Source: an uncultured Clostridia bacterium
Lineage (GTDB): Bacteria; Bacillota; Clostridia; Oscillospirales; Oscillospiraceae
Length of the DNA stretch: 64,000 nucleotides
Direction of reading: 5' to 3'
Assembly: GCA_946186375.1 (NCBI GenBank)
Contig: CAMHMZ010000007.1
Span: forward strand, 1 to 64,000
In this document: positions 18,344-36,390 of the stretch, in pieces
Layout of the letters: each line of letters opens with the position of its first letter
How positions within the stretch are numbered: position 1 is the first letter of the stretch
Position numbers and translations under genes: made by a program
Notes under the pieces: generated by a model
Told to the model about the DNA's origin: nothing
Seen by the model: the letters and a program-made list of their open reading frames with translations, nothing else
The model's database searches: none

Positions 18344-18375
18344 AACCTATAGAGTTTTAGAAGGAGACAACTATA

Positions 18376-18726: not shown

Positions 18727-18738
18727 GGAGGTGTCAAG

Positions 18739-19020
18739 ATGCTGATTCTGGAAGACCTCTACCTCGGTGACGTTCGCCCCAGCGAGCGCAGCTTCAAGCG
18801 CAACAGCCAGTATGCCAAAGCGCTGGATGACCTCGTGAAAGCCGGAGATGCACTGACCGACACGCTCACCGAAAAACAGAGAGAAATGTTTGAAGACTAT
18901 ATGACTGCCCAGCGGGAGGTCAATGTGCTGACCGATTGCGAGACATTTATCTACGCTTTTCGTTTGGCTGCCAAGATCATGATCGATGTGCTGACCAACG
19001 GGACGATGAAGGAAATCTAA
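18739..19020 (+). CDS. DUF6809-type small helical protein
   Basis: 93 aa, mainly helical. The N-terminal MLILEDLYLGDVRPSER and the AGDALTDTLTEKQREMFEDY helix are seen in small proteins that travel next to TnpV on clostridial elements. Function unknown. Ribosome site GAGGAGGTG, followed by a clear terminator, so TnpV and this gene form a two-gene unit. Confidence 0.75.
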   Translation: MLILEDLYLGDVRPSERSFKRNSQYAKALDDLVKAGDALTDTLTEKQREMFEDYMTAQREVNVLTDCETFIYAFRLAAKIMIDVLTNGTMKEI

Positions 19021-19031
19021 ATCATTCAAAG

Positions 19032-19069
19032 CGAGGATGGGACGATGATCCCATCCTCGTTTCCTTTTT
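19032..19069 (+). terminator. Intrinsic terminator of the tnpV unit
   Basis: CGAGGATGGGA/TCCCATCCTCG perfect 11-bp stem, 6-base loop, then TTTCCTTTTT. Confidence 0.85.
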
Positions 19070-19122
19070 CCGTTACACCTGCACGCACTCGTCTTTTCCA
19101 GGGAAAGGCTGTTGCCGATGTT

Positions 19123-19845
19123 TCAGGGAACCTGATACGCCGCGGAGAAACGGTTGACCGAGGTGCGCTTTTCCACGATGGCTTTCAGCATGGCGTCGCT
19201 CTCCGTGATGACACGGCCGCTGAGGCGGTTGATGCCAAGAGCCAGCTGCTCCGGGCAGCAGGTGACTGTCGGCCCGGTAAGGATGACCTCAGCGTTCCGG
19301 CTCAGTTCCAGCAGGCGCGGCATGGTCTTGTTGATGGCCGCACTGCCGGTGATGATCACGAGATCGCACAGCGGCAGATAGAACTCGCTTGCGCTGTCCG
19401 GCAGGGCTCCGGCTTTTTCTTCCCGGTCCATGATGTACAGCTTCTTGGCGGAGATAAAATCCTCCTGCGTCATGTTGCTGTGGCCGATCATCATGCCCAC
19501 CATCCCCACCGTGCGGCCGCGGATTTCGACGCCGTCCAGCGTTTTGGCGTTAGTCTTTACAAAGCCGCAGCCGTCGTGGTTATAGAAGGCGTTGACCGCG
19601 GCGAAGGCCTCGCTGGCCTCCTCCATGTTCCAGGAGAGCATGGCCTGTCCGGCCTGACTGAGCGGCAAGCCGAGCAGACTTTCAAACATCCGCGCCACGG
19701 TCTCGCCCGGGGTGTGCATGGCGACGCCGGTCCGTCCGTCGCTGAGCACCGCCGCTGTCCAGGAAATCCCGTGCACCAGCTTTTGAACCGTCAAGTCCCC
19801 CGGCAGACCTGTCTGGAGGATTTCGTAATAGGACGTGTCGATCAT
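19123..19845 (-). CDS. DUF364 (DUF4213-type) putative metal-chelation protein
   Basis: 240 aa. The C-terminal Rossmann-like half has the pattern of the DUF364 family: GRTVGMVGMMIGHSN, the short ILTGPTVTCC, and LALGINRLSGRVITESD near the end. This family is often described as a putative heavy-metal chelatase. The DUF4213-like N-terminal half has SWTAAVLSDGRTGVAMHTPG. Two adjacent cysteines (TCC) in the last third could bind metal. It is the last gene of a minus-strand unit, starting one base after the stop codon of the HypB-like gene. Enzymatic activity is not established for the family. Confidence 0.75.
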   Translation of the reverse strand: MIDTSYYEILQTGLPGDLTVQKLVHGISWTAAVLSDGRTGVAMHTPGETVARMFESLLGLPLSQAGQAMLSWNMEEASEAFAAVNAFYNHDGCGFVKTNAKTLDGVEIRGRTVGMVGMMIGHSNMTQEDFISAKKLYIMDREEKAGALPDSASEFYLPLCDLVIITGSAAINKTMPRLLELSRNAEVILTGPTVTCCPEQLALGINRLSGRVITESDAMLKAIVEKRTSVNRFSAAYQVP

Positions 19846-19846
19846 C

Positions 19847-20515
19847 TTACCGGATCCAGTTCAGCGTCTGCTCCCGCAGCCAGTCGGCCCATTCCTGCAC
19901 GCCTTCGCCGGTCTTGGCGCAGATGGGGATGACCTTCATGTTGGGATTCAGGCGCCACACATACTCCTTGCATTTTTCCAGATCGAAGTCGAAAACCTCC
20001 ATGACGTCGATCTTGTTGATGAGCAGCACGTCGCAGATCGTGAACATCAGCGGGTATTTGAGGGGCTTGTCATGGCCTTCCGGAACGGAGAGGATCATGG
20101 CGTTCTTCACCGCGCCGGTGTCAAACTCCGCCGGGCAGACCAGGTTGCCGATGTTCTCCAGGATGGCCAAATCCACGTCCTCCGTGCCGAGATTTTCCAG
20201 TCCCTGCCGGGTCATATGGGCGTCAAGATGGCACATGCCGCCGGTGTGGAGCTGGATCACCTTGACCCCGGTCTTCTCGATGGTGGCCGCGTCCACATCC
20301 GAGTCGATGTCAGCCTCCATGACGCCGATGCGCAGTTCGTCCTTCAGCGCCTCGATGGTGCGGCGCAGCGTTGTGGTCTTGCCCGAGCCGGGAGAGGACA
20401 TGAGATTGAGCAGAAAGGTCTTGTTCGCTTTCAGTTCTTTCCGGAGTTCCTCCGCCTTCCGGTCATTGTTTTCCATCACGCTCTGCTTGACTTCAATGAC
20501 TTTGAATTCAGACAT
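19847..20515 (-). CDS. HypB-like nickel metallochaperone GTPase
   Basis: 222-aa SIMIBI GTPase. The Walker A SSPGSGKTT is at residues 40-48, VMEADIDSDVDA follows, then the metal site GMCHLDA (Cys-His pair of the HypB G domain), ENIGNLVCPAEFDTG (Walker B region) and LLINKID (NKxD base recognition). In hydrogenase and urease maturation HypB binds and hands over nickel. The N-terminal His-rich or CxxCGC metal store of some HypBs is missing, and no hypA, hypC-F or hydrogenase gene is present. So it likely serves nickel trafficking for an enzyme elsewhere, or for this locus itself. Confidence 0.88.
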   Translation of the reverse strand: MSEFKVIEVKQSVMENNDRKAEELRKELKANKTFLLNLMSSPGSGKTTTLRRTIEALKDELRIGVMEADIDSDVDAATIEKTGVKVIQLHTGGMCHLDAHMTRQGLENLGTEDVDLAILENIGNLVCPAEFDTGAVKNAMILSVPEGHDKPLKYPLMFTICDVLLINKIDVMEVFDFDLEKCKEYVWRLNPNMKVIPICAKTGEGVQEWADWLREQTLNWIR

Positions 20516-20572
20516 TTTCGTTTCCTCGCTTTTTATCTATTCTCCATGATTCAGATTTCCCGGGTCGATGCG

Positions 20573-21313
20573 TCACCTTTTCACATAGGTGAAGGTCGAG
20601 GCGATCTCCTTGCTGTCGTAGATCCCTTCGATCCCCTCGGCAAGCGGCTTGCGCGTTACGGCAAGATACACGCCCTTTTTCTCCACATTGAAGAAGATCC
20701 GGCCGTCCTCATCCGTATGCAGGATGCGCTCGAAATACGCTTTCCCGTCATAATGGATCACAGTCACCGTCGCCTGTTTAATCGGGAAGCGGTCGTGGAT
20801 CAGGGTCAGATGCAGGACTTCCGCGTCCGGCTCCCAGGGCTCCGGCACGAAGCTCACGCGGGATTCGTGGATGAAATTGGCCTGGCCCTCCGTCTCGCCG
20901 ACCGCAATGCAGGTCTCATAGATCTGCGGGTAATTCTTGGCGTCCAGGATATCCGGATAGGTCCGTCTGTCGCCCTCCAGATATTCGTCCTTTTCATTCC
21001 GGACATAGTTGTTGTCGTAGATTGCCATGATCGTGTGAATGCCGCGGGAGAGCGGCGTGAAGTTCAGCTCATAATAGTCGCCCCACTCATCTCCCGGCCC
21101 TTTTACCGGCGCGAGTGCGATCCGGTTCCCGGCCTCGTCACAGACGAAAGCCCGGAATTCGTCCAGACGGAAGAAGCCGTCCGGCCGCATATAGTGACCC
21201 CAGCGCAGGATGGCGTGGACTTCCTCTCCCGGTTCGTAGACGGATTTATCCGTCACGATCCAGGCCTCGTGCCCGTAAACCAGATAGTCGGTGGTGTCGA
21301 TTCCCCTTCTCAT
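20573..21313 (-). CDS. DUF4198-like protein of metal-uptake loci
   Basis: 246 aa, beta-rich. The start MRRGIDTTDYLVYGHEAW is followed at once by the HEAW motif that opens DUF4198 domains of nickel/cobalt uptake loci; DKSVYEPGEEVHAILRWGH and IHTIMAIYDNN also fit. Most relatives have a signal peptide and act outside the membrane, but none is visible here, so a cytoplasmic form or a wrongly placed start is possible. Several His residues (HEAW, RWGHYM) could bind metal. Second gene after the MATE pump. Confidence 0.65.
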   Translation of the reverse strand: MRRGIDTTDYLVYGHEAWIVTDKSVYEPGEEVHAILRWGHYMRPDGFFRLDEFRAFVCDEAGNRIALAPVKGPGDEWGDYYELNFTPLSRGIHTIMAIYDNNYVRNEKDEYLEGDRRTYPDILDAKNYPQIYETCIAVGETEGQANFIHESRVSFVPEPWEPDAEVLHLTLIHDRFPIKQATVTVIHYDGKAYFERILHTDEDGRIFFNVEKKGVYLAVTRKPLAEGIEGIYDSKEIASTFTYVKR

Positions 21314-21353
21314 GTTTCTCCTCCTGTGATGTATGTGAATTCTATTCGAAAGC

Positions 21354-22706
21354 TCAGTTTTGCCGTTTTCTTTTACTGATTAGTCCGTTTTCAGAGCAAT
21401 AGTATACGCACATGCCGAGAGCTGTGAGTCCCCAGGTGACCGGGTAGGAGGCCGCCACGCTTTGGATGCTGCGGGTGTGCGGGACGATCCAGAACAGAAG
21501 CGCCGAGCGGATCAGGCAGAGGTTGAGCAGCACGATCAGCATGGGCACTTTTGTTTTGCCCTGACCGCGCAGACTGTCTCCAAGGATCTGATGAACCGGG
21601 TACAGCACGTAATACGGGAACGTTACCGCGATGATCTGCCGTCCCAGGGCAATGACAGAGGGTTCCTTGATAAACAGGCGAAACAGCGCCCCGCCGAAGA
21701 GCAGCGATACGGCGGAGAGGATCGCCGTCAGTCCCAGCGAGATCAGAAGGCAGTCGCGCGTACCCCTTCGGATGCGCGCGAACTGCCCTGCGCCGCAGTT
21801 CTGCCCGCTGAAGGTCATGATCGCCTGGCCCAACGCCATGATCGGCAGATAGATGATCAGCTCCACCTTGAAATACGCGGTAAAGGCCGCAATCGCATCG
21901 GCGCCGAAGGCGTTGATATGCGCCTGCACCACCACGTTGGACAGCGTGATCACCAGTGCCTGCGCTCCGGCCGGCAGACCGATGGCGACGGTCTTTTTCA
22001 GCAGCGCCGGATCGAAGCGGATCCCCCGGAGGCGCAGCGCAAAGGCGTTATCCAGTCGGCACAGCTTCCGCGCAACCAGCGCCGCCGCTACGGTCTGGGA
22101 AAAGAGTGAGGCCCAGGCCACGCCCACAACGCCGTTTGCCAGCACGCGAAGCAGCAGCCAGTCGGCCGCCACATTGACAAGGCCTCCCACCAGTTGGGCA
22201 AGAAGCGGGTTTTTCGAATCCCCCAGCGCCCGCAGCATTCCCGCGCCGAAATTATACGCGACGATCGAGGGCAGTGAGAGAAAATAGATCCGTAGGTAGG
22301 CCTCCGCGTTTGCACGGATCTCCTCCGGCGTGCGGATCAAGCGCAGATAGCCCGGCGCCAGCAACCAGCCGAGCAGGGCGAGTACGACCCCGCCCGCCAG
22401 CGCAAGCGCCGCCGTGTTGCCGATCGCACGGCGCAGCTTGTCCGTGTCGCGCTCGCCCCAGCTCTGTGCAATCACGACCCCCGCTCCCACGGCCAGACCG
22501 CCGAAGAAGCCGATCAGGCAGGTGATCAGCAGCGTGCTGGCTCCGATCGCCGCAGAAGCGGTCTTGTCGATCACGTTGCCAACAAAGATCAGATCGACAG
22601 TGCTGTATAACTGCTGCACCAGCGTCCCCAACAGCAGCGGGAGCGCGAAACGCAGCAGCTTTTGTATGATCGGGCCTGTTGTCAGGTCCTCGTTTCTTTG
22701 ATTCAT
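21354..22706 (-). CDS. MATE family efflux transporter
   Basis: 450-aa membrane protein with 12 predicted spans. LTTGPIIQKLLRFALPLLLGTLVQQLYSTVDLIFVGN (in parts: FALPLLLGTLVQQLYSTVD) is the classic MATE start, and the duplicated half begins at about residue 230. MATE pumps exchange Na+ or H+ for organic compounds. As first gene of a unit with DUF4198, HypB and DUF364 it may export a small chelator or its product. There is no clear ribosome site: a hairpin in the long leader (22734-22764) lies where one would be expected. Confidence 0.88.
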   Translation of the reverse strand: MNQRNEDLTTGPIIQKLLRFALPLLLGTLVQQLYSTVDLIFVGNVIDKTASAAIGASTLLITCLIGFFGGLAVGAGVVIAQSWGERDTDKLRRAIGNTAALALAGGVVLALLGWLLAPGYLRLIRTPEEIRANAEAYLRIYFLSLPSIVAYNFGAGMLRALGDSKNPLLAQLVGGLVNVAADWLLLRVLANGVVGVAWASLFSQTVAAALVARKLCRLDNAFALRLRGIRFDPALLKKTVAIGLPAGAQALVITLSNVVVQAHINAFGADAIAAFTAYFKVELIIYLPIMALGQAIMTFSGQNCGAGQFARIRRGTRDCLLISLGLTAILSAVSLLFGGALFRLFIKEPSVIALGRQIIAVTFPYYVLYPVHQILGDSLRGQGKTKVPMLIVLLNLCLIRSALLFWIVPHTRSIQSVAASYPVTWGLTALGMCVYYCSENGLISKRKRQN

Positions 22707-22733
22707 GGCATGAAGTTGATCTTAACAGTATGT

Positions 22734-22764
22734 TAGCCCCCCGAGTGACCGGCTCGGAGGGCTA
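22734..22764 (-). promoter_or_regulatory. Leader hairpin before the MATE gene
   Basis: TAGCCCTCCGAG/CTCGGGGGGCTA (minus strand), a 12-bp stem with one G-T pair and a 7-base loop, 28 bases before the start codon in a leader of roughly 150 nt. No T run follows. It could control translation or be part of a riboswitch that I cannot identify. Confidence 0.45.
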
Positions 22765-22863
22765 TAGCAAGAGAGATCCTCGGCTGCCTTTGTGTCGGAG
22801 AGGTGAAAGAGACACATGGATTGAGGGGATCCGGGCAACCGATCAAGCATCTGATCTGATAAG

Positions 22864-22907
22864 AGCATAACAGAATTCTCGGCCGTGCGGAAGCCCCCCT
22901 GGGGGAT
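22864..22907 (-). promoter_or_regulatory. Palindrome-controlled promoter 1 (MATE-DUF4198-HypB-DUF364 unit)
   Basis: On the minus strand ATCCCCCAGGGGGGCTT (22907-22891) is followed by a -35-like TTCCGC and, 24 bases after the G run, TATGCT (22869-22864). Layout is identical to the promoters at 28713, 29555 and 29657. Confidence 0.75.
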
Positions 22908-22929
22908 GAAATTTGAAAAATGACTTGTT

Positions 22930-23505
22930 TTATTTCGCCGTGCCGGAAAGCAGAAACAGCGAGTCGTTATCACAGATACAGTCGATCGCGAAGAATTCCC
23001 GCCAGAGTTTGGCTTCCTCCTCCGCAGGGAGCAGCTGCCTTGCAAGGCCGCCCGGCATGATGCTGCCGAGCGTGTTCATCCGGTCGCGGCCAAAGGGGAA
23101 CGCCACCGTAAGCCGCCCGCGGGGCAGCAGAAGCTCTCGCGCTTTTTTCAGAAAGTCACGCGGCTGCAGGAAGTGGTGATAGGCGTTGAAAGACACGATC
23201 ACCTCATAGCCGGGCTGCTCAAGCTGCAGGAAGTCAGCCTGGGTCAGATGGATGCGCGGATCGGCACCGTACTTTTTCTGCGCCAGACGGATCATCTCCC
23301 CGGAGATGTCCACACCCTCGATCTCACAGGCGCCGCCGTCCATGAGATCGGCAAACATCGCACCGCTGCCGCAGCCGACGTCCATCACACAGGCGCCGCC
23401 CCGGTGGATCGAGGCCATGGCCGTGACGATGCGGGCGGCCTTGGCCTCCGAATAATCGTCGTCCCAGATTGAGGCGACAGAATCATAGTATTCAGCGATC
23501 TGCAT
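22930..23505 (-). CDS. Class I SAM-dependent methyltransferase (last gene of the ABC unit)
   Basis: 191 aa. CVMDVGCGSGAMFADL (motif I) binds SAM, IEGVDISGEMIRLAQKKYG is motif II, and VIVSFNAYHHFLQP the motif IV/post region. Start at MQIAEYYDSV because AAGGAGG lies upstream. It is 40 bases downstream of the second ATPase gene of the importer, in the same unit. It is shorter than the other two methyltransferases of this locus and not closely alike. The acceptor could be a metal chelator; that is inference. Confidence 0.85.
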   Translation of the reverse strand: MQIAEYYDSVASIWDDDYSEAKAARIVTAMASIHRGGACVMDVGCGSGAMFADLMDGGACEIEGVDISGEMIRLAQKKYGADPRIHLTQADFLQLEQPGYEVIVSFNAYHHFLQPRDFLKKARELLLPRGRLTVAFPFGRDRMNTLGSIMPGGLARQLLPAEEEAKLWREFFAIDCICDNDSLFLLSGTAK

Positions 23506-23544
23506 GAGTTTCCTCCTTGCGCAAATCACACACGAGCCATTTCC

Positions 23545-24294
23545 TTAATTCTTGATTTCCAGAACAGAGTCGACCAGCTTTTTTGTATAAGCCTCTCTGG
23601 GCTGACGGATCACCTGTGCCGCCGGCCCTTCCTCCACAAGGGCACCGTCGCGCATGATCATCACCCGGTCGCACAGGCAGCGGATCACCGCCAGATCGTG
23701 GGACACAAAGATCGCGGAGGTATGGCTCTCGCGGCAGATACCGGCAAGCAGATGCAGGATCTGCGCCTGGGAGGACACGTCGAGTGCGCTGGTGATCTCG
23801 TCGCAGAGCAGGATCTCCGGCTCCACGGCCATGGCGCGGGCGATCGCCATGCGCTGGCACTGCCCGCCGCTGAGCTGGCGGGGTGTGCGATCCATCAGCT
23901 CCCGCTGCAGTCCCACCCGGTCGGCCAGCGAGGCCAGGTCGAGCGGCGCGTTTCTTCCGCGCAGACTGCGGACCGACTCGGTGATCGAATCCGCGATCGT
24001 GCGGCGGGGATGGAAAGAGGCCGGTGCGTTCTGAAAAATCATCTGCATCGTCCGGTATTCTTCTTTGGTGCGCCGGGGCGAGAGCTCTTTTCCATGGAGC
24101 AGGATGCTGCCCGCGCTGGGCGCTTCCAGGCCGGAAATAAGCTTCAAGAGCGTGGACTTGCCGCTGCCGCTCTCTCCCGCAACGCCTAGGATCTCCCCGC
24201 TCTCGAGGCGAAAGTCGACCCCGCGAAGCGCGTGGATCACGGTGCTTTGCTGCTCATAGCGCTTGGCAAGGCTTTTCCCTTCCAGAACGATCAT
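23545..24294 (-). CDS. ABC transporter ATP-binding protein (Nik/Opp type, second ATPase)
   Basis: 250 aa... 249 residues plus stop. Walker A GESGSGKST, signature LSGGQCQRMAIARA, Walker B ILLCDEITSALD and switch His in VSHDLAVI are all intact. The FQNAPASFHPRRTI loop is typical of DppF/NikE ATPases. The ATG overlaps the previous stop codon (ATGA), so it is coupled to the first ATPase. It powers uptake with the two permeases. Confidence 0.93.
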   Translation of the reverse strand: MIVLEGKSLAKRYEQQSTVIHALRGVDFRLESGEILGVAGESGSGKSTLLKLISGLEAPSAGSILLHGKELSPRRTKEEYRTMQMIFQNAPASFHPRRTIADSITESVRSLRGRNAPLDLASLADRVGLQRELMDRTPRQLSGGQCQRMAIARAMAVEPEILLCDEITSALDVSSQAQILHLLAGICRESHTSAIFVSHDLAVIRCLCDRVMIMRDGALVEEGPAAQVIRQPREAYTKKLVDSVLEIKN

Positions 24295-25244
24295 GGCATG
24301 GCCTCCTTCCCGCCGCAGCAGGAGACGAAATGGCCGTCTCCCACCTGCCGCATGGCATAAGGCGCATGCGCACAGGCTTCCGCCGTCTGCGGGCAGCGGT
24401 CGCAAAACTCGCAGCCTCTCTCCGCGGGGCCGGTCATCGGCGGGCTGCCGGGCAGGCCGTCGGGCATCGTCCCGTCAAGGCTCGGGATCGCCGCGCGCAG
24501 ACTCTTGGTATAGGGGTGCTGCGGACTGCACAGCACGTCGCAGGCCCGGCCAAACTCCACCAGCCGCCCGGCGTACATGACGCCGATATGGTCGGCCAGA
24601 AAATGGGCCAGCGCCAGATTGTGGGTCACGATGACCTGTGTCACACCGTTTTTGTCGCGCAGCCGTTTGAGCTCCTCGGCCACCTGCAGCTGGATCGTGG
24701 CGTCCAGCGCGCTGGTCGGCTCATCGCAGAGCAGGATCTCCTGCTCGAGCAGCAGGGCCAGCGCCAGCGCCACACGCTGGTTCATGCCGCCGCTGAGAGC
24801 GAAGGGACACTCGCCAAGGACGCGCCGCCAGTCGTTAAGCTCCACCTTGGCGAAAGCCTCCGCCACCTTGGCGTCAAAGGTTTTCGGGTCGTATTTGCCG
24901 TGGCTCTTAAGGGTTTCGATAAACTGCCTGCGATAGCTGCGGATGGGGTTGAAGGTCGCCTCCGGCGTTTGGAAGACGATGCCCATTTTCTCGCAGCAGA
25001 GCTTGCGCCGCTGCTTTGGCGGAAGGGCGGAGAGCTCTGTGCCCTCCAGTGTGATGGCGCCGGAGAAAAGCCGGATCTCGGGTGCGGCCATCAGGGCCTT
25101 GAGCACGGTGCTCTTACCGCAGCCGCTCTCCCCCACGAGGCAGAGGATCTCGCCCCGCTGCAGGGAAAAGGACACGTCCGCGGCGGCAGGGCGGTCGCCG
25201 TATCCGACACAGAGCCGGTCGAGCGTGAGGATCGTGTCGCTCAT
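24291..25244 (-). CDS. ABC transporter ATP-binding protein (Nik/Opp type, first ATPase)
   Basis: 317 aa. Walker A GESGCGKST, signature LSGGMNQRVALALALLLEQE, Walker B ILLCDEPTSALD, and VTHNLALAHFLAD. The C-terminal oligopeptide-transporter extension (SPQHPYTKSLRAAIPSLDG) ends with a Cys set, CEFCDRCPQ...CAHAP, the iron-sulfur-type motif common in Dpp/Opp/Nik ATPases. I start at MSDTILTL after AAGGAGG; the longer reading runs through the permease gene. Overlaps the permease gene by 4 bases. Confidence 0.93.
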   Translation of the reverse strand: MSDTILTLDRLCVGYGDRPAAADVSFSLQRGEILCLVGESGCGKSTVLKALMAAPEIRLFSGAITLEGTELSALPPKQRRKLCCEKMGIVFQTPEATFNPIRSYRRQFIETLKSHGKYDPKTFDAKVAEAFAKVELNDWRRVLGECPFALSGGMNQRVALALALLLEQEILLCDEPTSALDATIQLQVAEELKRLRDKNGVTQVIVTHNLALAHFLADHIGVMYAGRLVEFGRACDVLCSPQHPYTKSLRAAIPSLDGTMPDGLPGSPPMTGPAERGCEFCDRCPQTAEACAHAPYAMRQVGDGHFVSCCGGKEAMP

Positions 25245-26077
25245 GTCTCCGCCTCCTTTGCTTCCAGCACGTCGCGCACGCAGTCGCCCAGATAGTTGAA
25301 GATCATCACCGTGATGATCGTGGCGACGGCCGGGGCGAGCACCGCCCAGGGGGCCAGCTGCAGATAGGCGCGGGAGGTGTTGATCATGCTGCCCCACTCC
25401 GCCTGCGGCTCGATCACACCGATGCCGAGGAAGGAGAGGCCCGCGATGCCGATCATCATGACGCCAATCTGGGTCGCCGCCGTGACGAGCAGCGGCCCGA
25501 GCATGTTGGGCAGCAATGATTTTATCATGATCGTCCAGCCGGAGCAGCCGGAAAGCCGGGCGGCGTGGACGTAAGGTTCTTCTTTCAGACTCAGTACCTG
25601 GGCGCGGGCGAGGCGCGCATAGAGCGTCCAGCCGCTGATGCCCATAGCGAGCATGGCGTTGCCCATGCCGCCTCCCAGGATGCCCGCCACCGCGATGGCC
25701 AGTACCATCTGCGGGAAGGCCAGCATCACATCCGCAAGGCGCATGATCAGCGTGTCGACCACGCCGCCGTACCAGCCGGCCAGCAGGCCGAGCACGGAGC
25801 CGGCGAGGAAGGTGAGCCCCACCAGTGCGACAGCGGAAAAGATGGAGGTTCTCGCCCCCATCAGCACGCGCGAGCAGACACAGCGGCCGTAGCGGTCTGT
25901 GCCGAAGGGAAACTGCGCGCAGGGTGCGCGGTTCATATCCGCGGCAGAAGTTGCATAGGGGTCATTGGGGCAAATGAGCGGTGCGATCAGGCTGATGACG
26001 ACCAGGATCCCGGCCAGGGCCAGAAAAACGATCGCACGGCGGCGGATGCGCTCGGGTGTTTTGATCCGTTTTTTCAT
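25241..26077 (-). CDS. ABC transporter permease (NikC/DppC type)
   Basis: 278-aa membrane protein with 6 spans. The N-terminal LICPNDPYATSAADMNRAPCAQFPFGTDRYGRCVCSRVL (key part: FGTDRYGRC) is the DppC/NikC entry. The EAA loop region ARAQVLSLKEEPYVHAARLSGCS couples to the ATPases. It starts MKKRIKTPERIRRR at 26077, overlapping the stop of the other permease by 4 bases. Forms the pore with its neighbour. Confidence 0.93.
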   Translation of the reverse strand: MKKRIKTPERIRRRAIVFLALAGILVVISLIAPLICPNDPYATSAADMNRAPCAQFPFGTDRYGRCVCSRVLMGARTSIFSAVALVGLTFLAGSVLGLLAGWYGGVVDTLIMRLADVMLAFPQMVLAIAVAGILGGGMGNAMLAMGISGWTLYARLARAQVLSLKEEPYVHAARLSGCSGWTIMIKSLLPNMLGPLLVTAATQIGVMMIGIAGLSFLGIGVIEPQAEWGSMINTSRAYLQLAPWAVLAPAVATIITVMIFNYLGDCVRDVLEAKEAET

Positions 26078-27012
26078 GCGCCGCCCCCCTTTCTGCGAAG
26101 CCGGGGATCGATCCATGCATAGCAGATGTCGATCAAGAGGTTGATGACGACATACACCGTGGAGGTAAAAAGCACAAAGCCCTGGATCACCGGGTAGTCG
26201 CGGTTGCTGATCGCGTCCATGGCAAGCTTCCCAAGCCCCGGCCAGCGGAAGATCGTCTCGATGACGACACTGCCGCCAAAAAGCGTGCCGATGGAGAGTC
26301 CCACGATCGTAAGGATGGAAATGGAGGCGTTGTGCAGCACGTTTTTCAGCACATAGCGTTCCTTTACGCCGCGCAGTCTGGCGCCGGAGACATAGGGCTT
26401 GCCCAACTGCTCGAGGATCTCCGCCCGAAACTGGCGGATAAAGCGCCCGCAGATTGGGATGGAGAGCGCCAGGCAGGGCATGATGAGTCCCTTGACGCTC
26501 TCTTTCGCCGTCAGCGGAAGTAGATGCGCCTTGACGCACAGGAAGTACATCAGCAGTACCGAGATCAGAAAGTTCGGCAGCGAGTTGCCGGCGAAGCTGA
26601 AAAGCCGCGTGATGTCGTCCAGCAACGAATCCTTGTGGAGCGCTGTGAGGATGGCAAGCGGAAGCGCCACCAGGAAGGCCAGCGCCAGACTGCCGAGGGC
26701 GAGGATTGCCGTGTAGCGCAGCGCCTTGACAAGCTTCCCCGCCACGGGGAAGCCGTCCTTATAGCTCTCACCCAGATCAAAGCGCAGTGCATGGAGCGCC
26801 CAGTCGCCGTACTGCACCAGGAAGGGCCGGTCGAGGCCCATGCTTTCTCTTGTTTTCTCAATGATCTCCTCCGAGACGGCCACGCCCTGGGCGTTGAGCT
26901 TTTTCATCGCCGCGTCGCCGGGTGAGAGGTACATCAGCAAAAACGTCAGGAAACTGACGGCGATCAGGATGCCGACAAGGTGAAGCAGTCGTCTGCCTAT
27001 GTATTTGGCCAT
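26074..27012 (-). CDS. ABC transporter permease (NikB/DppB type)
   Basis: 312 aa, 6 membrane spans. MAKYIGRRLLHLVGILIAVSFLTFLLMYLSPGDAA (in parts: IGRRLLHLVGILIAVSFLTF, SPGD) is the usual DppB start, and the EAA loop is PYVSGARLRGVKERYVLKNVLHN. AGGAGG ribosome site. It stands 70 bases after the binding-protein gene and is coupled to the second permease. Confidence 0.93.
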   Translation of the reverse strand: MAKYIGRRLLHLVGILIAVSFLTFLLMYLSPGDAAMKKLNAQGVAVSEEIIEKTRESMGLDRPFLVQYGDWALHALRFDLGESYKDGFPVAGKLVKALRYTAILALGSLALAFLVALPLAILTALHKDSLLDDITRLFSFAGNSLPNFLISVLLMYFLCVKAHLLPLTAKESVKGLIMPCLALSIPICGRFIRQFRAEILEQLGKPYVSGARLRGVKERYVLKNVLHNASISILTIVGLSIGTLFGGSVVIETIFRWPGLGKLAMDAISNRDYPVIQGFVLFTSTVYVVINLLIDICYAWIDPRLRRKGGGA

Positions 27013-27082
27013 CGGTCAGTTTCCTCCTTTCATGCAATTTGGGGCCGGTGTAGACGCACCGGCCCCATCGGATCATTGGGTT

Positions 27083-28669
27083 TTATGCGATATCCGTCTC
27101 AGGCGTGAGGCCATAGAAGTCGAAGGGGATGTCCTCCGAGAATCCGGTGACGCCGGGCCTTGCGACAGAGACTTTGTTGAACAGGCCGACGTAGCCGAAG
27201 GCGTTGTCGTCAATGCTCATCTGAACGATCTGGTTGGCAAGCGCGGCACGCTGATCGATATCAGTCTCAAATTGGAGCTGATTGATCAGCGCCTCGGACT
27301 CGTCGGTGGGGAAGCCGGCCTTGGCCCACTTGCCGCTCTGGCGGTACAGAGCATCGACGCAGTAGTAGGGATCGCCGCCTGTATCGGCGATCATGCAGTA
27401 GAGCGCGATGTCATAGTCGCCGGTCGCCACATAGCCGGCGTCCGGATCCTCTTCCACGACCAGCGTCGCCTTGATGCCGATCTTCTCAAGCTGCTCCTTC
27501 ATCAGGAGGGCGAGGTCGGGCAGCTGGCGGGACTTGTAGTGGGCAATGCTCAGCTCGAGCACTTTTCCATCCTTCTCATAAAATCCGTCGGCGTTCAGCG
27601 TATAGCCGTCAGCCTCCAGCAGGGCCTTGGCCGCGGCGGGATCGGGTGCGGGCTTTGTGACCTGGCCATAGGGCGCAGACGCGATAAAGGGGCCGACAGC
27701 CGCGGAGGTCGTGCCCTTGAGGAACTCGGCAATGGCTTCGCAGTCCACCGTCAGGTTGATCGCCGCGCACACGCTGTCATCGAGACGCGTCTGGTTGATC
27801 ACATAGAATTGCATGCGGGTGCCGGGAATGACCGTGAGATTGTAGCTGGCCGGATCGGCTTCGTAAATCTCCTTGGCGGCCGCGTCCACGCTGGTGTAGC
27901 AGTCGATCTCCCCGGCCTGCATGGCCAGGAGTTTGGAGTCTGCATCCGGCATATAGAAGAGCGTGGCGCCGTCGAGCTTGACCTCGCCGTTCCAGTACTT
28001 GTCGTTGCGCACGACCTCCACGTCGCCCTCCGGCTGGAAGGACTGGATCACAAAAGGTCCCGTGCAGATGGGCGCATTGTCAAAGTCGGTGGTGGCGTCC
28101 AGATCCATGATCGCAAACTCGGGGTCCGTCAGCGCGACGAGCATCGTCGGGAAGACGTCCGGGGTCGTGATGACGAAGGTCTTTTCATCCTCGGCGGTGA
28201 ACGTGAAGTCCGCCCAGTCGTCGTAGCGTTCGTTGACCTCGATCAGACGCTGGAAGTTGCGCGCCACCATGTCGGCGGTGACGGGATTGCCGTTGGAGAA
28301 GCAGGCGTCCGCCAGCGTAAAGGTCCAGGTCAGGCCGTCTTCGCTGACGCTGGAATCCTTCGCCAGCAGCGGGCTGACAGACATATCCGCATCGATCCGG
28401 TACAGGGTCTCGGTCATGCCGTAGATCTGCGTATACCAGCCATAGTAGTCTTTATGGGCGTCCAGGCTGGGATAAGCGAAGTTTGTGGCCATCCGCAGCC
28501 ACTTGGCCTCCTGCGGGGCCGGGGCGGCATCCGCGGCAGGTGCAGCGTCCGCAGCCGGAGCCGGTTCGGCAGCCGGAGCCTCGGCCGGTGCCTTCTGACC
28601 GCAGGCCGCGAGGGCAAGGATCATGCACAGTGCAAGCAGAAGCGCAAGAGTCTTTTTCAGATTCTTCAT
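27083..28669 (-). CDS. ABC transporter substrate-binding lipoprotein (SBP_bac_5, NikA/DppA type)
   Basis: 528 aa. The signal MKNLKKTLALLLALCMILALAACG (LAAC lipobox, Cys about residue 23) anchors it outside the membrane, followed by an Ala/Pro/Glu-rich linker. The body has the class C cluster fold: VSPLLAKDSSVSEDGLTWTFTL and ATLFYMPDADSKLLAMQAGEIDCYTS are family patterns. Peptides, haem, nickel or nickel-chelator complexes are known ligands of such proteins. The locus context (HypB, DUF4198) favours a nickel complex, by inference. First gene of the six-gene transport unit. Confidence 0.92.
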   Translation of the reverse strand: MKNLKKTLALLLALCMILALAACGQKAPAEAPAAEPAPAADAAPAADAAPAPQEAKWLRMATNFAYPSLDAHKDYYGWYTQIYGMTETLYRIDADMSVSPLLAKDSSVSEDGLTWTFTLADACFSNGNPVTADMVARNFQRLIEVNERYDDWADFTFTAEDEKTFVITTPDVFPTMLVALTDPEFAIMDLDATTDFDNAPICTGPFVIQSFQPEGDVEVVRNDKYWNGEVKLDGATLFYMPDADSKLLAMQAGEIDCYTSVDAAAKEIYEADPASYNLTVIPGTRMQFYVINQTRLDDSVCAAINLTVDCEAIAEFLKGTTSAAVGPFIASAPYGQVTKPAPDPAAAKALLEADGYTLNADGFYEKDGKVLELSIAHYKSRQLPDLALLMKEQLEKIGIKATLVVEEDPDAGYVATGDYDIALYCMIADTGGDPYYCVDALYRQSGKWAKAGFPTDESEALINQLQFETDIDQRAALANQIVQMSIDDNAFGYVGLFNKVSVARPGVTGFSEDIPFDFYGLTPETDIA

Positions 28670-28712
28670 CTTGTTTCCTCACTTTCTTTTGCCTTTTGGG
28701 CTTCTGGAAAAC

Positions 28713-28756
28713 AGTATAGACCCCTGCCAAATGCTGCGGAAGCCCCCCTGGGGGAT
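28713..28756 (-). promoter_or_regulatory. Palindrome-controlled promoter 2 (ABC importer unit)
   Basis: On the minus strand ATCCCCCAGGGGGGCTT (28756-28740), -35-like TTCCGC, 17-base spacer, then TATACT (28718-28713). Leader to the binding-protein ATG is only about 40 nt. Confidence 0.8.
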
Positions 28757-28779
28757 ACAAATTTCAACAATTTTTCACA

Positions 28780-29505
28780 CTATTTGTAGGCGGCAAGGCA
28801 AAAGATCGGCGTCGGGTTGAAGAATTCGTCGATCTCGGCATAGATGCGCCGGTAGGCACCCATGTCCACCGAAACGCGCTCAAAGCCCGCTTCGATGAGC
28901 AGCTGTACGTCCCATTGCGGTCGCGGCCCGTGATAGGCGCCGACCTCCATGGTGATCGCCTCGTTCTCTTCTTTCATGTATTCCGGCACCAGCTTGTGGG
29001 CGTGGTTTTCCGGCAGCTCGTGCTCCTCCTCATCCTCCAGCGCCGCGCTGTAATCTGCGTCGAAATTGATCAGTACGCCGCCCGGCTTTAACAGCCTGTA
29101 CCATTCCCGGTAGGCCTTTTCGATATGCGGCAGCGTCCAGGTGAGATTGCGCGTCACCAGCACGTCGAAGCTCTCCGGCGCAAAGTCCGGCTCCTCGGCG
29201 TCCATGACGGCAAAATCCGCTTTCAAGCCAAGGATCTCCGCCGTCTGGCGTGCCCGGTCGATCATGTCCGGGGTCAGGTCGATGCCCGTGGCCTCGTGTC
29301 CCTCCGCCGCAAAGACGAGGGCGAAAAAGCCCGTGCCTGTTCCCAGATCCAGCACGCGCAGCGGACGGTCCTGCGGGATATAGAGGTTAAATTCCCTGAG
29401 CCAGCGCTCATGCTTTTCATCTTCAAATTCCCGAATGCGCTGGGTCTGAAAGGCCTCCGCCCGGTGAGACCAGTAATGGGTGATGCGGTGCTTGATAGGT
29501 TCCAT
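28780..29505 (-). CDS. SAM-dependent methyltransferase (metal locus, second)
   Basis: 241 aa, class I fold. LRVLDLGTGTGFFALVFAAEGHEATGIDLT (motif I DLGTGTGFF) binds SAM; VLVTRNLTWTLPHIEKAYREW and LKPGGVLINFDADYS are nearly the same as in the methyltransferase at 30655, so the two are paralogues with a related acceptor site. It is transcribed alone from promoter 3, toward the importer unit. A role in making or modifying a chelator is possible; the substrate is unknown. Confidence 0.88.
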   Translation of the reverse strand: MEPIKHRITHYWSHRAEAFQTQRIREFEDEKHERWLREFNLYIPQDRPLRVLDLGTGTGFFALVFAAEGHEATGIDLTPDMIDRARQTAEILGLKADFAVMDAEEPDFAPESFDVLVTRNLTWTLPHIEKAYREWYRLLKPGGVLINFDADYSAALEDEEEHELPENHAHKLVPEYMKEENEAITMEVGAYHGPRPQWDVQLLIEAGFERVSVDMGAYRRIYAEIDEFFNPTPIFCLAAYK

Positions 29506-29554
29506 AGGTCGTTCTCTCTCCGTTCCTTTTGCTTGCTCCCGGCTGTTTCTCTGT

Positions 29555-29598
29555 ATTATAGGGCATCTCTTTTTCCCGCGGAAGCCCCCCGGGGGGAT
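29555..29598 (-). promoter_or_regulatory. Palindrome-controlled promoter 3 (methyltransferase)
   Basis: On the minus strand ATCCCCCCGGGGGGCTT (29598-29582), TTCCGC, 17-base spacer, TATAAT (29560-29555, consensus). It faces away from promoter 4, 59 bases to the right. Confidence 0.8.
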
Positions 29599-29656
29599 AA
29601 TCCTTTTTTCTGAGAAAGCCTTTGCTTTCTGCGCGTTTCCGCATTTTTCGCCGCGT

Positions 29657-29700
29657 ATCCCCCCGGGGGGCTTGTGGCGTTTCGCCGCGCATGATACTTT
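29657..29700 (+). promoter_or_regulatory. Palindrome-controlled promoter 4 (M14 peptidase unit)
   Basis: ATCCCCCCGGGGGGCTT (29657-29673), TTGTGG as -35, and TACTTT (29695-29700) at the same 24-base distance from the G run as in the other three copies. Confidence 0.75.
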
Positions 29701-29726
29701 GTAAAAAAAGATTATCGGAGGTTTCT

Positions 29727-30680
29727 ATGCAGGTCAAAAGCATCGCCGGGCATGAGCTGACGCCCGGCAAAACCGTCAAGGATCATATCCATGTGGAGGG
29801 CACCGAACTGCACGTGCCCCATGTGTTGCTCTGCGGCGAGCAGCCGGGGCCGACCGTGCTGATTTCCGCCGGCATCCATAATGCGGAGTACGTGGGCATC
29901 CAGGCGGCCATCGAGCTGTCGAATGAACTGGACGTCTCCGCGCTGCACGGCAACGTGATCCTGCTGCCGCTTGCCAACCGCTCCGGCTTTGAAAACCGCA
30001 CCATGTCCATGGTCTATGAGGACGGGAAAAACCTCAACCGGGTCTTTCCCGGCGACCGGGAGGGCAGTGAAGCCGACAAGCTGGCGCACATGCTCTTTGA
30101 AGTGTTTATCCGAAACGTGGACGCCTACATCGACCTGCACAGCGGCGACGGGTATGAGGCACTGATCCCCTACGCCTACTATCTGGGCGACACGCCCGCC
30201 GAGGAGACGGCGAAGGCCATGATCGCCTGCGTCAACACGAAATACTATGTTCGCTCCCGCTGCCGCACCGGCGGTGCATATAACCTCGCCTCCGTCCACG
30301 GCGTCCCCAGCGTACTGATCGAGCGCGGACAGCTCTCTCTTTTCAGCCGGGAGGAGATCGAGGCGGACAAGGCTGACGTGCGGAACATCCTCCGCTGCCT
30401 GGGTGTGTTGCCCGGTGAGGCGATGCGCTATCCTAAGACGCAGCTGCTGGAATACAGCGACGACGCGCCATGCACCGGCTGCTGGTATCCGGAGAAAAAG
30501 GTGGGCGAAGTCTTCCGTAGGGGTGAAAAGCTGGGCGAGATCCGCGACTACTTCGGGCGCAGCCTCTTTGTGGAGTACGCGCCGGACGACGGCGTGCTGC
30601 TGCATCAGTGCGCGTCGCTGAATATCATTGAGAAAGGCCCGATGGTGACTTACGGTGTCCCGACAGACGATATTATCTGA
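29727..30680 (+). CDS. M14 family AstE/AspA-like zinc amidohydrolase
   Basis: 317 aa of the succinylglutamate desuccinylase/aspartoacylase branch of carboxypeptidases. Zinc ligands are in SAGIHNAEYVG (HxxE) and DLHSGD (His). GKNLNRVFPGD holds the Asn-Arg pair that binds the substrate carboxylate. The C-terminal beta domain (GEKLGEIRDYFG) fits the family. It should cleave an amide of an N-acylated amino acid. Start at 29727 after CGGAGG. It shares a transcript with the next methyltransferase (26-base overlap), so it may process or break down an aminocarboxylate chelator; that is inference. Confidence 0.85.
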   Translation: MQVKSIAGHELTPGKTVKDHIHVEGTELHVPHVLLCGEQPGPTVLISAGIHNAEYVGIQAAIELSNELDVSALHGNVILLPLANRSGFENRTMSMVYEDGKNLNRVFPGDREGSEADKLAHMLFEVFIRNVDAYIDLHSGDGYEALIPYAYYLGDTPAEETAKAMIACVNTKYYVRSRCRTGGAYNLASVHGVPSVLIERGQLSLFSREEIEADKADVRNILRCLGVLPGEAMRYPKTQLLEYSDDAPCTGCWYPEKKVGEVFRRGEKLGEIRDYFGRSLFVEYAPDDGVLLHQCASLNIIEKGPMVTYGVPTDDII

Positions 30681-31437
30681 AAACAAGAGCTACTGGACCG
30701 GCCGCGCCTCCTCCTACTCTGAGGTCAATCAGCTAGAGCTTGCCACGCAGCAGCGGCAGAAGTGGAGCGACTGCCTCCATGCCGAGATCACGCGGCAGTT
30801 CCCGGACAGCGCGTCTAAATCCCTGCGCGTGCTGGAGGTGGGCACCGGCCCGGGCTTCTTTGCCATCCTCCTGCGGGAACTGGGCTATGATGTGACGGCC
30901 ATCGACCTGACGCCCGCCATGCTGACCGAGGCAAAGAAAAATGCCGGCGAGCTTGCCGGCAAGATTCGATGGATGGAGATGAACGCAGAGGAGCTGGATT
31001 TTGCGGACGCTTCCTTTGACGTGGTGGTCAGCCGCAACCTGACCTGGAACCTGCCCCACCCCGAAAAAGCCTATGCCGAATGGGCACGGGTGCTGAAACC
31101 GGGCGGACTGCTGCTGAACTTCGACGCCAACTGGTACGCCTATCTCTTCGACGACGAGGCCCAGGCCGCCTACGACCGGGATCGGGCCAACAGCGCCGAG
31201 CAGGGCGTGTGGGATCAGAACGTGGGAGAGAATTTCGACGTGATGGAGGACATCGCCCGCCGGGTTCCGCTGTCGAATATCCGCCGCCCGGATTGGGATC
31301 TCGCGCTGCTACAGGGCCTCGGCCTGCACGCGGAAGCGGACGAGCAGACCTGGCAGCGCGTCTGGTCGGAGGAGGAAAAGCTGAACTTCTCGTCCACCCC
31401 GCTGTTTTTGGTGCGAGCAACAAGAACGGTATCGTAA
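30655..31437 (+). CDS. SAM-dependent methyltransferase (metal locus, third)
   Basis: 260 aa, class I fold. LRVLEVGTGPGFFAILLRELG is motif I (EVGTGPGFF), with VTAIDLTPAML and the shared core VVSRNLTWNLPHPEKAYAEW seen also in the paralogue at 28780. The start is a GTG at 30655 inside the M14 gene; no strong ribosome site is visible, which agrees with translational coupling. The C terminus (LNFSSTPLFLVRATR) also resembles the paralogue's FNPTPIFCLAAYK end. Acceptor unknown. Confidence 0.87.
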   Translation: MSRQTILSENKSYWTGRASSYSEVNQLELATQQRQKWSDCLHAEITRQFPDSASKSLRVLEVGTGPGFFAILLRELGYDVTAIDLTPAMLTEAKKNAGELAGKIRWMEMNAEELDFADASFDVVVSRNLTWNLPHPEKAYAEWARVLKPGGLLLNFDANWYAYLFDDEAQAAYDRDRANSAEQGVWDQNVGENFDVMEDIARRVPLSNIRRPDWDLALLQGLGLHAEADEQTWQRVWSEEEKLNFSSTPLFLVRATRTVS

Positions 31438-31470
31438 GCATAAAGGGGTGTGCTTTTACCAGAAGAAAAG

Positions 31471-31520
31471 AAAGACCCGAAATCATTTGCTCGTTCGTAC
31501 AATGGTTTCGGGTCTTTTTT
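31471..31520 (+). terminator. Intrinsic terminator of the M14-methyltransferase unit
   Basis: AAAGACCCGAAA-CATT pairs with AATG-TTTCGGGTCTTT around a 13-base loop and ends in TTTTTT. Confidence 0.9.
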
Positions 31521-31660
31521 ATTTTCGGAATTGCAGAAGTGCAATTCTTCGCCTGATGCGCCTTGAAGAATTGCAAAAATGTGGATTTCAGACTTTCGTG
31601 AAGTTTTTCCTCGTATAATTGGGTTGAAGCAGGAAACGGAACGGGCTTAGAAAAAAGCCA

Positions 31661-32479
31661 TTACTTCCTCTTGCTGTTCTTCCCGCGCTTGTTGGGCTGC
31701 CCTTTGAGCAGAGATGACTTTTTCAGGATGCTGATCAGGCTGACAAACTCGTCCTTGGACAGCTTGTCGTAATTGATCCCGAGCTGCTTGCAGAACAGGC
31801 GGGCCTGGCGCTCCTCTGGGCTGCCCTCGTAGCTCATGGCTGCCTCCAGCTCCTGCCGTGCGGTGTCGGAGGGGTTGTCCGCATCGGCGGTGGTCGTATC
31901 TTTTATGTGCGCTTCCCGGATATCCGCGATGATCTTATCGAGATCGTCATGCACGACCCGGCTGAAATACTCGTCCTCATTGATTTGGGCCAGCTCCAGT
32001 GTCCGCATGTACAGATCGTTCTCGCCGGGATTGTGCTTTTCCATGACCGTTTTCCGAGCCTCGGCCAGGACGACGTTCATGTCATGTACCCGCATGGCCG
32101 CGATCCGATCCACACAGATCTCCGTGTCCACCATCAGGCGCTGAAAGTCCGGATGCGTGGCAATCTCACCCAGCAGGCGGTTGTTGATCTTTCCGCTTGC
32201 CAATAGCTTCATCATATCATCACTCAGATGCAGACCCGCCAGGTCTGTGTCTGGGTGTTTTTTTATTTCCGAGACCCCCAGCAGGTAATCCGTGGACACC
32301 CCGTAGTACTCCGCCAGCGTCACGATGCTGAACGGGCTAATGTCCTTGTAATCATCGGCTTCATAGCTGCCGAGGGCGGATTTGGAAAGCCCGGTGGCCT
32401 CGGCCAACTCTTCCAGGGTCAGATGACGCTCCACGCGCAGATCCTTCAGACGCTCGGGAATGGACAGCTTTACGTACAT
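31661..32479 (-). CDS. XRE-type helix-turn-helix regulator of the mobile element
   Basis: 272 aa. The Cro/C1 domain is at the start: RLKDLRVERHLTLEELAEATGLSKSALGSYE (key: TLEELAEATGLSKSALGSYE). A long acidic helical C-terminal region follows. Start at MYVKLSIPERL (32479), preceded by GAAGGAGAG. It is divergent from ParM and the mobilisation genes, the usual place for an element repressor. Confidence 0.85.
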   Translation of the reverse strand: MYVKLSIPERLKDLRVERHLTLEELAEATGLSKSALGSYEADDYKDISPFSIVTLAEYYGVSTDYLLGVSEIKKHPDTDLAGLHLSDDMMKLLASGKINNRLLGEIATHPDFQRLMVDTEICVDRIAAMRVHDMNVVLAEARKTVMEKHNPGENDLYMRTLELAQINEDEYFSRVVHDDLDKIIADIREAHIKDTTTADADNPSDTARQELEAAMSYEGSPEERQARLFCKQLGINYDKLSKDEFVSLISILKKSSLLKGQPNKRGKNSKRK

Positions 32480-32985
32480 TTTCGTTCTCTCCTTCGCTGA
32501 AAAACACGGCTTTTTAACAGTATACCACATCATTTCCTTGATCGTGGAATTTTTCACTTTTTACCCCTGTTTTCCTACATCCCGGATATACGGGAGGAGG
32601 CCTTTTTTCTTGGTACGATACGGTTCGACAAGTGAATGACCGTCCGAACTGAGATAAACCGCGAAGATCTCGCAAGAGGGAGCGCGGCCCCTACGGGGCC
32701 GACGGCACAGCGCCGAGCAGGGTTGCCTGTCAGGAAACAGGGAGGGAAGAACGGCAAGCGGTAAAGGGAGATTTCGTTCTTAAATAACTGCTTTCACTTT
32801 TCGAGGGCGAAGAAAGGAGGTGAACCCTGTGATAAACATTTTTGCGGCCGTGCCGAGACGTTGGAAAAGCGGATCAGCGCCGTAGGACCCACGGCAGACA
32901 GCAAAATGGATCAGCCGGAGGAACGCTTGACCCGGCTGACCCTGGAAGAAAACACAAGCAAAAATCATTTTTAGGAGGAAATATA
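32480..32985. other. 506-bp region between the repressor and parM
   Basis: No gene that I can defend. It has a GGCCCC-TAC-GGGGCC hairpin near 32690, AAAGGAGGTGAACC at 32815, and an open frame from a TTG at about 32861 to 32974 coding for a 37-residue acidic peptide (ends ENTSKNHF). That frame has no ribosome site of its own. The promoters of both flanking genes should be here. Confidence 0.4.
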
Positions 32986-33912: not shown

Positions 33913-33918
33913 TGTGAT

Positions 33919-34239: not shown

Positions 34240-34292
34240 TGCTTTCAAAATGATAGCACACGGTTGAAGGGGTGCTTTCAATTTGAAAGCAC
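34240..34292. promoter_or_regulatory. Candidate partition site (parC-like repeats)
   Basis: Two related palindromes directly after parR: TGCTTTCAAAATGATAGCA (34240-34258) and TGCTTTCAATTTGAAAGCA (34273-34291), 33 bases apart. Sites of this kind next to a ParMR pair are candidates for ParR binding. Confidence 0.4.
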
Positions 34293-36386: not shown

Positions 36387-36390
36387 GAGG

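Follow-up and report, generated by a model that had tools for sequence, protein, structure and literature searches.

Positions 1 to 64,000 of contig CAMHMZ010000007.1, from an uncultured Clostridia bacterium of the Oscillospiraceae (assembly GCA_946186375.1, a draft genome of 3.29 Mb in 133 contigs, 83.9% complete), form the stretch of DNA analysed here, henceforth the window. Within it, four transcription units are each headed by the same 17-nucleotide (nt) palindrome, ATCCCCC(A/C)GGGGGGCTT, followed at a fixed distance by a promoter -10 box. We propose that this palindrome is the operator of a nickel-uptake regulon governed by a CsoR-family protein and including a structured RNA.

Unit 1, read like units 2 and 3 from the minus strand, opens with the palindrome at 22891-22907 and a -10 box, TATGCT, at 22864-22869, which places the predicted transcription start (+1) at 22857. 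Behind it come a structured RNA of about 123 nt (22735-22857), whose CU-rich loops and 3' terminator-like hairpin were defined by alignment and covariation, and then genes for a MATE family exporter (21354-22706; PF01554, TIGR00797), a DUF4198 protein (20573-21313; PF10670), the nickel GTPase HypB (19847-20515; TIGR00073 at 258.7 bits against a cut-off of 121.2) and a DUF4213/DUF364 putative heavy-metal chelation protein (19123-19845; PF13938 and PF04016). Unit 2 (palindrome 28740-28756; -10 box TATACT at 28713-28718) encodes a nikABCDE-like ATP-binding cassette (ABC) importer and a methyltransferase: a NikA-type substrate-binding protein (27083-28669; PF00496, with the best NCBIfam match, Opp5A_nikA, at 265 bits and so below its cut-off of 600), a NikB-type permease (26074-27012; Opp2B nickel permease, 357 bits, above the cut-off of 350), a NikC-type permease (25241-26077; PF00528), the NikD-type (24291-25244; PF00005 and PF08352) and NikE-type (23545-24294; PF00005, scanned from 24405) ATPases, and S-adenosylmethionine (SAM) methyltransferase 1 (22930-23529; PF13649). 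Unit 3 (palindrome 29582-29598; -10 box TATAAT at 29555-29560; predicted +1 at 29548) consists of SAM methyltransferase 2 (28780-29505; PF13649). Unit 4, on the plus strand (palindrome 29657-29673; weak -10 box TACTTT at 29695-29700), encodes a succinylglutamate desuccinylase/aspartoacylase-like (AstE/AspA-like) protein (29727-30680; PF24827) and SAM methyltransferase 3 (30655-31437; PF08241).

A first-pass annotation of this DNA, made from the letters alone, had placed the palindrome at these four positions and nowhere else in the window, had counted 13 genes under its control and had seen no candidate regulator among the window's genes. All of this agrees with what we found: the matches are exact at all four positions and strands, the gene count fits the layout of open reading frames (ORFs), and, as regards regulators of the CsoR family, the genome's two such genes lie on other contigs. 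At up to three mismatches the window yields two further matches only, both of them listed palindromes read on the opposite strand; these six matches compare with a mean of 0.35 and a maximum of 3 in 100 shuffled windows. Genome-wide, seven exact 17-mers were found against 0.0025 expected from window base composition alone. Nine places in the genome carry the core CCCCCNGGGGG, and seven of them have the full 17-mer, namely the four in the window and one each on C20, C27 and C105. The C20 copy heads cbiM-cbiQ-cbiO, the C27 copy heads an operon for a FecCD permease, an ATPase, a binding protein and a methyltransferase, and the C105 copy heads a gene whose product belongs to the CsoR/RcnR family and has a long N-terminus rich in His. 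The two remaining cores were set aside as regulon sites: that on C18 has the flanks ATAC...GTAT in place of AT/CTT and is part of the promoter of a paralogous CsoR gene, and that on C19 also lacks the AT/CTT flanks and appears to lie inside a coding sequence.

In the window each of the four -10 boxes starts 24 nt past the G run, and the -35 positions read TTCCGC in three promoters and TTGTGG in the fourth, both as the annotation had described; six of the source genome's seven sites have the -10 box at 24 nt, and the FecCD site fits 25 nt. The geometry was assessed on the window and the first 191 loci, which had been picked by motif or regulator and never by the -10 box, and which gave 168 distinct sites at no more than one mismatch (135 exact, 33 with a single mismatch). 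Of these 168, 140 have TAnnnT at precisely 24 nt and 162 have it at 23-25 nt, against at most 6 at control distances of 5-18 and 32-39 nt. Statistics on the -35 region and on gene clusters come from an older set of 172 sites that includes four duplicates cut at locus ends. Over 146 promoters of that set, selected for a -10 box at 24 nt, the -35 region reads TTGYG, the first TT belonging to the search motif; it matches TTGACA at a mean of 3.0 of 6 positions, the consensus bases A at position 4 and C at position 5 each occurring in 5%. At the expected +1 of the same promoters lies a CA step (C in 57%, A in 68%), its A being the 7th base past the -10 box, and the predicted +1 base in the four window promoters is A three times and C once. 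The earlier expectation that transcription starts 6-8 bases past the -10 box is upheld as far as sequence can speak to it, through this CA step and the conserved 5' end of the RNA described below.

These positions put the centre of the palindrome at about -42.5 from the predicted +1. Class II activator sites are centred near -41.5. The regulon promoters thus combine a site held in fixed register close to that position with a weak -35 region, as a class II activator promoter does, and this predicted layout favours activation over steric repression, in line with the earlier suggestion that a site upstream of a weak -35 would suit an activator.

The same genomes supply an internal contrast. The source genome's only other CsoR-family gene, on C18 (L005 5582-5824), has the operator ATACCCCCTGGGGGTAT (L005 5449-5465) within the spacer that separates TTGACA from the -10 box. 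Across the genus the paralogous operators, ATACCCCCNGGGGGTAT, likewise lie between -35 and -10, with a perfect TTGACA 1-2 nt upstream in 21 of 30 loci; of the nine loci without it, L192 and L217 end at contig ends and so escape the position rule. A near-identical core thus sits in a repressor-like place beside a strong -35 in the paralogue promoters, whereas the regulon motif sits in an activator-like place beside a -35 that is off consensus.

Motif and register are conserved well beyond the window. The 17-mer occurs at no more than one mismatch in 53 of 61 genus genomes (reversed control, 0) and in exact form in 28 of 250 family genomes, representing 18 of 106 genera (control, 0); its absence from orthologous loci, set beforehand as a refutation of the regulon idea, was not observed. 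A scan of named genomes, whose pattern included the -10 box and which was used for names and gene types only, gave at least 126 sites, 34 of those listed being without a match to the reference gene set. Among the matches listed, the motif stands ahead of a methyltransferase in Flavonifractor plautii ATCC 29863 and of a nikA homologue (60% identity) in Lachnospiraceae bacterium XBD2001.

The genes behind the motif are mostly nickel/cobalt uptake genes, methyltransferases and the regulator. In the 172-site set the first downstream ORFs comprise 29 CbiM, 28 methyltransferases, 20 His-rich CsoR proteins and 19 FecCD permeases, and TAnnnT lies at 23-25 nt in 27, 28, 20 and 19 of these, respectively. 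Then follow NikA (9), a BtuF-type substrate-binding protein (8), AstE/AspA-like proteins (7), a NikB-type permease (7) and small groups; a further 9-member cluster has as its representative an out-of-frame call at a FecCD locus. Downstream genes were called by a crude rule; 27 sites form clusters of one member, wrong frames among them, and 4 have no call. Cluster names derive from the Pfam matches of source-genome members (CbiM, FecCD, methyltransferases, NikA, NikB, AstE/AspA) or, for BtuF, from sequence reading. A single motif in a single register, ahead of targets from one functional class and kept across the genus and in 18 of 106 sampled family genera, supports the single regulon that the first-pass annotation had proposed.

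As to the metal, the source genome has a HypA gene adjoining a gene for a large subunit that matches Complex1_49kDa (243.8 bits) and, above its cut-off, NiFeSe_Hases (59.4 bits); group 4 hydrogenases may match the complex I 49 kDa and NiFeSe_Hases families alike. Together with HypB in unit 1, this HypA and hydrogenase-like pair points to nickel. The pattern would mark a nickel-uptake regulon, with nickel as the probable effector.

Several observations touch on what the regulon contains. It holds, beside an aspartoacylase-like enzyme, three different SAM methyltransferases, which may make or modify a metallophore. At L191 (G043:C21) a single motif site heads a gene for a Rex-like redox regulator, and at L174 (G034:C9) a single site heads a gene for a HypB-like GTPase, both named from ORF reading; these sites hint that nickel supply and redox control may be connected.

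The best candidate for the regulator is the His-rich CsoR/RcnR-family protein encoded at C105:2111-2455 in the same genome. It matches Trns_repr_metal (PF02583) at 91.7-92.1 bits against a cut-off of 22.8 and stays below the NCBIfam cut-offs for RicR (47.9 of 175 bits), FrmR (42.6 of 133) and RcnR (38.6 of 138). Its closest solved structures are InrS (5fmn, E 5.2e-24) and a "putative cytosolic protein" (6ahx, E 1.1e-23), and alignment to 5fmn shows the Cys-His-Cys ligands kept, with a His run N-terminal of them. In InrS the ligands are Cys53, His78 and Cys82 together with N-terminal His21 (PMC7055735). Among the 30 best genus loci, one of them unscored, the motif at up to two mismatches precedes the regulator gene in 19. 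A strong orthologue (E < 1e-19), present in 103 family genomes, is found in 27 of the 28 family genomes with the exact motif and in 76 of the 222 others (Fisher p 7.6e-11, uncorrected for kinship); the lone motif genome without one, G199, is 66% complete. Within the genus the orthologue occurs in 47 of 53 motif genomes and in 5 of 8 without the motif, and G001 (95% complete) has neither. The annotation had pointed to CsoR/RcnR-type repressors and had called for a co-occurring regulator gene of the CsoR/RcnR, MerR or NikR type: an InrS-type member of the former family is indeed headed by the motif and co-occurs with it, but NikR was rejected as the regulator, its domain NikR_C (PF08753) being found in 0 of 61 genus genomes.

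Outside the genus the arrangement around the His-rich CsoR gene varies. In L098, from another genus, the exact motif heads the gene. In two further genera the motif lies beside the gene on the other strand (L090) or behind it (L100).

The RNA of unit 1 had escaped the first-pass annotation. It begins with AGATCAGATG at the predicted +1, as it does in many relatives, and is predicted to fold into an outer stem with two hairpins, followed by the terminator-like hairpin; its unpaired stretches CCCUC, CACCUCUC and GAUCUCUC resemble an anti-Shine-Dalgarno sequence. In an alignment of 22 sequences chosen by motif and 5' start, 18 of 28 pairs show compensatory double changes and 92.4% of cells pair, against 35-44% in slid controls; the covariation score is 0.402, compared with 0.197 after shuffling, and was reached by none of 500 shuffles. 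A covariance model that contains no motif matches the window at 22724-22857 with 143 bits, the window copy being a training sequence. At E <= 0.001 it has a match in 24 of the 61 genus genomes, with 25 copies in 21 genomes at 65 bits or more. The motif, at no more than one mismatch, lies 49-50 nt upstream of the RNA start in 24 of these 25 strong copies, 18 of which are training sequences; among the seven others it is present ahead of six and absent from L366, and an eighth non-training copy, L371 from the family scan, also has it. L357 and L371 carry the one-mismatch variant AACCCCCC upstream. The weak genus matches L368 and L362 have no motif there. Among the hits from other genera, which score 26-36 bits, L372 (genus g11) repeats the layout, its degenerate motif lying 50 nt upstream; L373, L374 and L375, which lack the motif, were not counted. 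A crude duplex scoring against 148 gene starts was dominated by long gapped pairings and named no target.

The MATE gene behind the RNA is a single open frame in the window, but in relatives it is matched in several frames (L340) or only partly (L343), in a way that would fit a decaying gene and a retained RNA.

Based on these observations, we consider it probable, at roughly 0.6, that an InrS-like CsoR-family protein binds the palindrome as an apo-activator of nickel uptake and releases it with nickel. When nickel is scarce, the metal-free His-rich protein would sit on the G/C-tract palindrome near -42.5 and, beside the off-consensus -35, help RNA polymerase to start from the -10 box 24 nt downstream in a class II-like manner. 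When nickel rises, the Cys-His-Cys site and an N-terminal His would bind it, the protein would leave the DNA and uptake would stop. The regulon so controlled would comprise Nik-type, CbiM-type energy-coupling factor (ECF) and FecCD-type ABC importers, HypB, methyltransferases, putative chelation or metallophore genes and, in many genus genomes, the regulator gene itself. The RNA, with its anti-Shine-Dalgarno-like loops, would probably down-regulate other mRNAs when nickel runs out. Proteins of the CsoR family usually bind DNA metal-free and release it with metal, and nickel inhibits InrS binding at the nrsD site (PMC4235346); with that allostery, expression of the uptake genes under nickel shortage would require the bound apo-protein to activate them. 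Such activation would agree with the constant position near -42 and with the off-consensus -35. InrS has been reported to bind upstream of the Synechocystis nik operon and to enhance its expression (PMC7055735), so activation within the CsoR family has a precedent, the only one that our literature search for CsoR-family activators returned, and that from a review. What the sequence shows directly is the motif with its register, the target genes, the co-occurrence of motif and regulator, the site ahead of the regulator gene, the kept ligands, the contrast with the paralogue promoters and the covarying RNA at the predicted +1; that this protein binds this site and activates, that nickel is the effector and that the RNA acts in trans are inferred. 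On the wider proposal, that a CsoR-family nickel sensor has become a dedicated class II-type activator of a whole starvation regulon, including an undescribed nickel-sparing or nickel-rerouting small RNA (sRNA), with the nickel form merely releasing, we regard the odds as evenly balanced.

A number of points weigh against this proposal. The CsoR family is best known for metal-released repressors, and a repressor abutting the -35 would also give a near-constant distance, since the motif includes the -35 TT. Transporter types cannot separate cobalt from nickel, and the hydrogenase-like protein matches the complex I 49 kDa subunit better than NiFeSe_Hases (243.8 against 59.4 bits). Of 28 His-rich CsoR loci examined in other genera, six had no anchor and one belonged to the same genus; the 21 that were scored show no clear operator ahead of the gene, with L098 the one known exception. 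The regulator is present in the 76 family genomes without the exact motif noted above and, within the genus, in G009, G010, G035, G056 and G057 without a motif at one mismatch or fewer, one of these genomes being 92% complete; conversely, G007, G014, G022, G025, G041 and G046 (68-84% complete) have the motif but no strong orthologue. Finally, behind 12 of the 25 strong RNA copies comes a gene of the regulon or a fresh regulon promoter, so the RNA may have a leader role.

The same His-rich protein could instead be a nickel-dependent repressor with inverted allostery that blocks the -35 of uptake genes in the manner of NikR or Nur, for which nickel-dependent co-repression of uptake is known (PMC4235346), and a palindrome that abuts and partly includes the -35 would allow such occlusion. 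We think this unlikely, given that InrS, the closest solved relative, loses DNA on nickel binding (PMC4235346) and that a strong promoter held under a block should keep a good -35, as the paralogue's does, whereas the regulon's is off consensus at positions 4 and 5 in most of the 146 promoters. More doubtful still is the idea that a protein of some other family reads the palindrome and that the His-rich CsoR is just a regulon member, such as a nickel buffer or another sensor. Its gene is headed by the motif like that of any member, the two occur apart in some genomes, our regulator survey covered the CsoR/RcnR and NikR families, and the pairing of CsoR with the palindrome was drawn from sequence. 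Against this stand the G-tract pseudopalindromes known as a CsoR operator type (PMC3902906), the near-identical core ahead of the genome's other CsoR gene, the strong co-occurrence of regulator and motif in the family, and the search for NikR, which found it in none of the 61 genus genomes. We therefore retain the apo-activating CsoR-family protein as the preferred explanation of the promoters.

For the RNA the choice lies between acting in trans and acting in cis. It is probably a trans-acting sRNA of nickel starvation, and possibly it also reads through into the MATE gene. A cis-acting leader, whether a metal or metabolite riboswitch or an attenuator, would account for the eight strong copies in which a regulon gene without its own motif follows within 150 nt of the hairpin, and for one more at 220 nt; it would also suit the window copy, in which no U run follows the hairpin and about 29 nt separate the RNA from the MATE start. 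Yet in three copies a further motif, with a promoter for FecCD, comes directly behind the RNA, and 13 have no intact gene of the reference set nearby, one of these 13 having a MATE remnant; this distribution favours an sRNA acting in trans. The genes behind the RNA also differ (MATE, DUF4198, HypB, a substrate-binding protein, DUF364), and a known RNA or riboswitch was rejected as its identity, an Rfam search of window positions 18000-32000 at E <= 1 having returned two chance-level rows only and no riboswitch. A leader thus seems to us somewhat improbable, and we keep to the trans-acting sRNA.

Compared with described systems, the proposed switch stands closest to InrS of Synechocystis PCC 6803, which is the nearest solved sequence, shares the Cys-His-Cys ligands and a His-bearing N-terminus, comes from a genome reported to lack NikR and is reported to enhance the nik import genes. 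InrS is, however, described mainly as a repressor of the exporter gene nrsD, whereas here we find a large Clostridia regulon centred on uptake, which has a single promoter register, includes an RNA and shows one exporter-like gene only, that for MATE in unit 1. With CsoR, RicR, RcnR and FrmR the candidate shares a Trns_repr_metal match over the cut-off and a G/C-tract inverted repeat. Those proteins serve export or detoxification. The paralogue has its operator inside the spacer; the regulon operator is found ahead of a -35 that is off consensus, and its genes are for uptake. The physiological task is that of NikR and Nur regulons, importers being on at low nickel, but NikR_C was found in none of the 61 genus genomes (Nur was not searched for) and the proposed logic is apo-activation in place of nickel co-repression. 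Metal-starvation sRNAs carry C/U-rich unpaired loops that could cover ribosome sites, and the unit 1 RNA has loops of this kind. Like RyhB and its analogues, RsaC, s-SodF and NikS (PMC9294342), the unit 1 RNA is a short RNA from a putative metal-sensor promoter; it differs in having no Rfam match, and the part of that paper's table available to us lists no CsoR-family sensor, its nickel-limitation sRNAs being given for Nur and NikR only.

The surroundings of the regulon genes contain traces of mobile DNA. The FecCD operon headed by the motif lies between a serine recombinase (Resolvase/Recombinase) and a MobA/VirD2-type relaxase (L008 4579-6669, 9439-13088 and 16695-18005), and this FecCD nickel-uptake unit may travel on a mobile element. 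In the window, 32842-37661 is probably an integrated mobile element adjoining the regulon: a ParM-like ORF, named by reading, precedes a Mob_Pre plasmid recombination protein (34488-35858) and a phage-type integrase (36438-37661). Beyond it, 37845-42915 is possibly a defence cluster, with an HD-domain-like ORF (by reading), an ORC-CDC6-like ATPase (38851-40701) and a C-5 cytosine DNA methylase (41842-42915).

What appears to be new here is a putative starvation RNA family without an Rfam match inside a predicted CsoR-type regulon of gut and rumen Clostridia. Nickel feeds the hydrogenases of hydrogen-cycling gut and rumen bacteria. The 17-mer with its 24-nt register offers a signature for nickel-uptake genes and for orphan methyltransferases, whose role may be the making or modifying of a metallophore, and the CsoR family becomes a place to study how the fold of a metal-released repressor may activate transcription, the repressor-type paralogue that shares the cell serving as a control. 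If the trans-acting reading is true, the RNA would give the CsoR family of sensors its first associated starvation sRNA, judged by the portion of the PMC9294342 table available to us. If the switch itself is as we propose, apo-activation by a CsoR-family protein would replace the usual nickel repressor in a group of gut and rumen bacteria.

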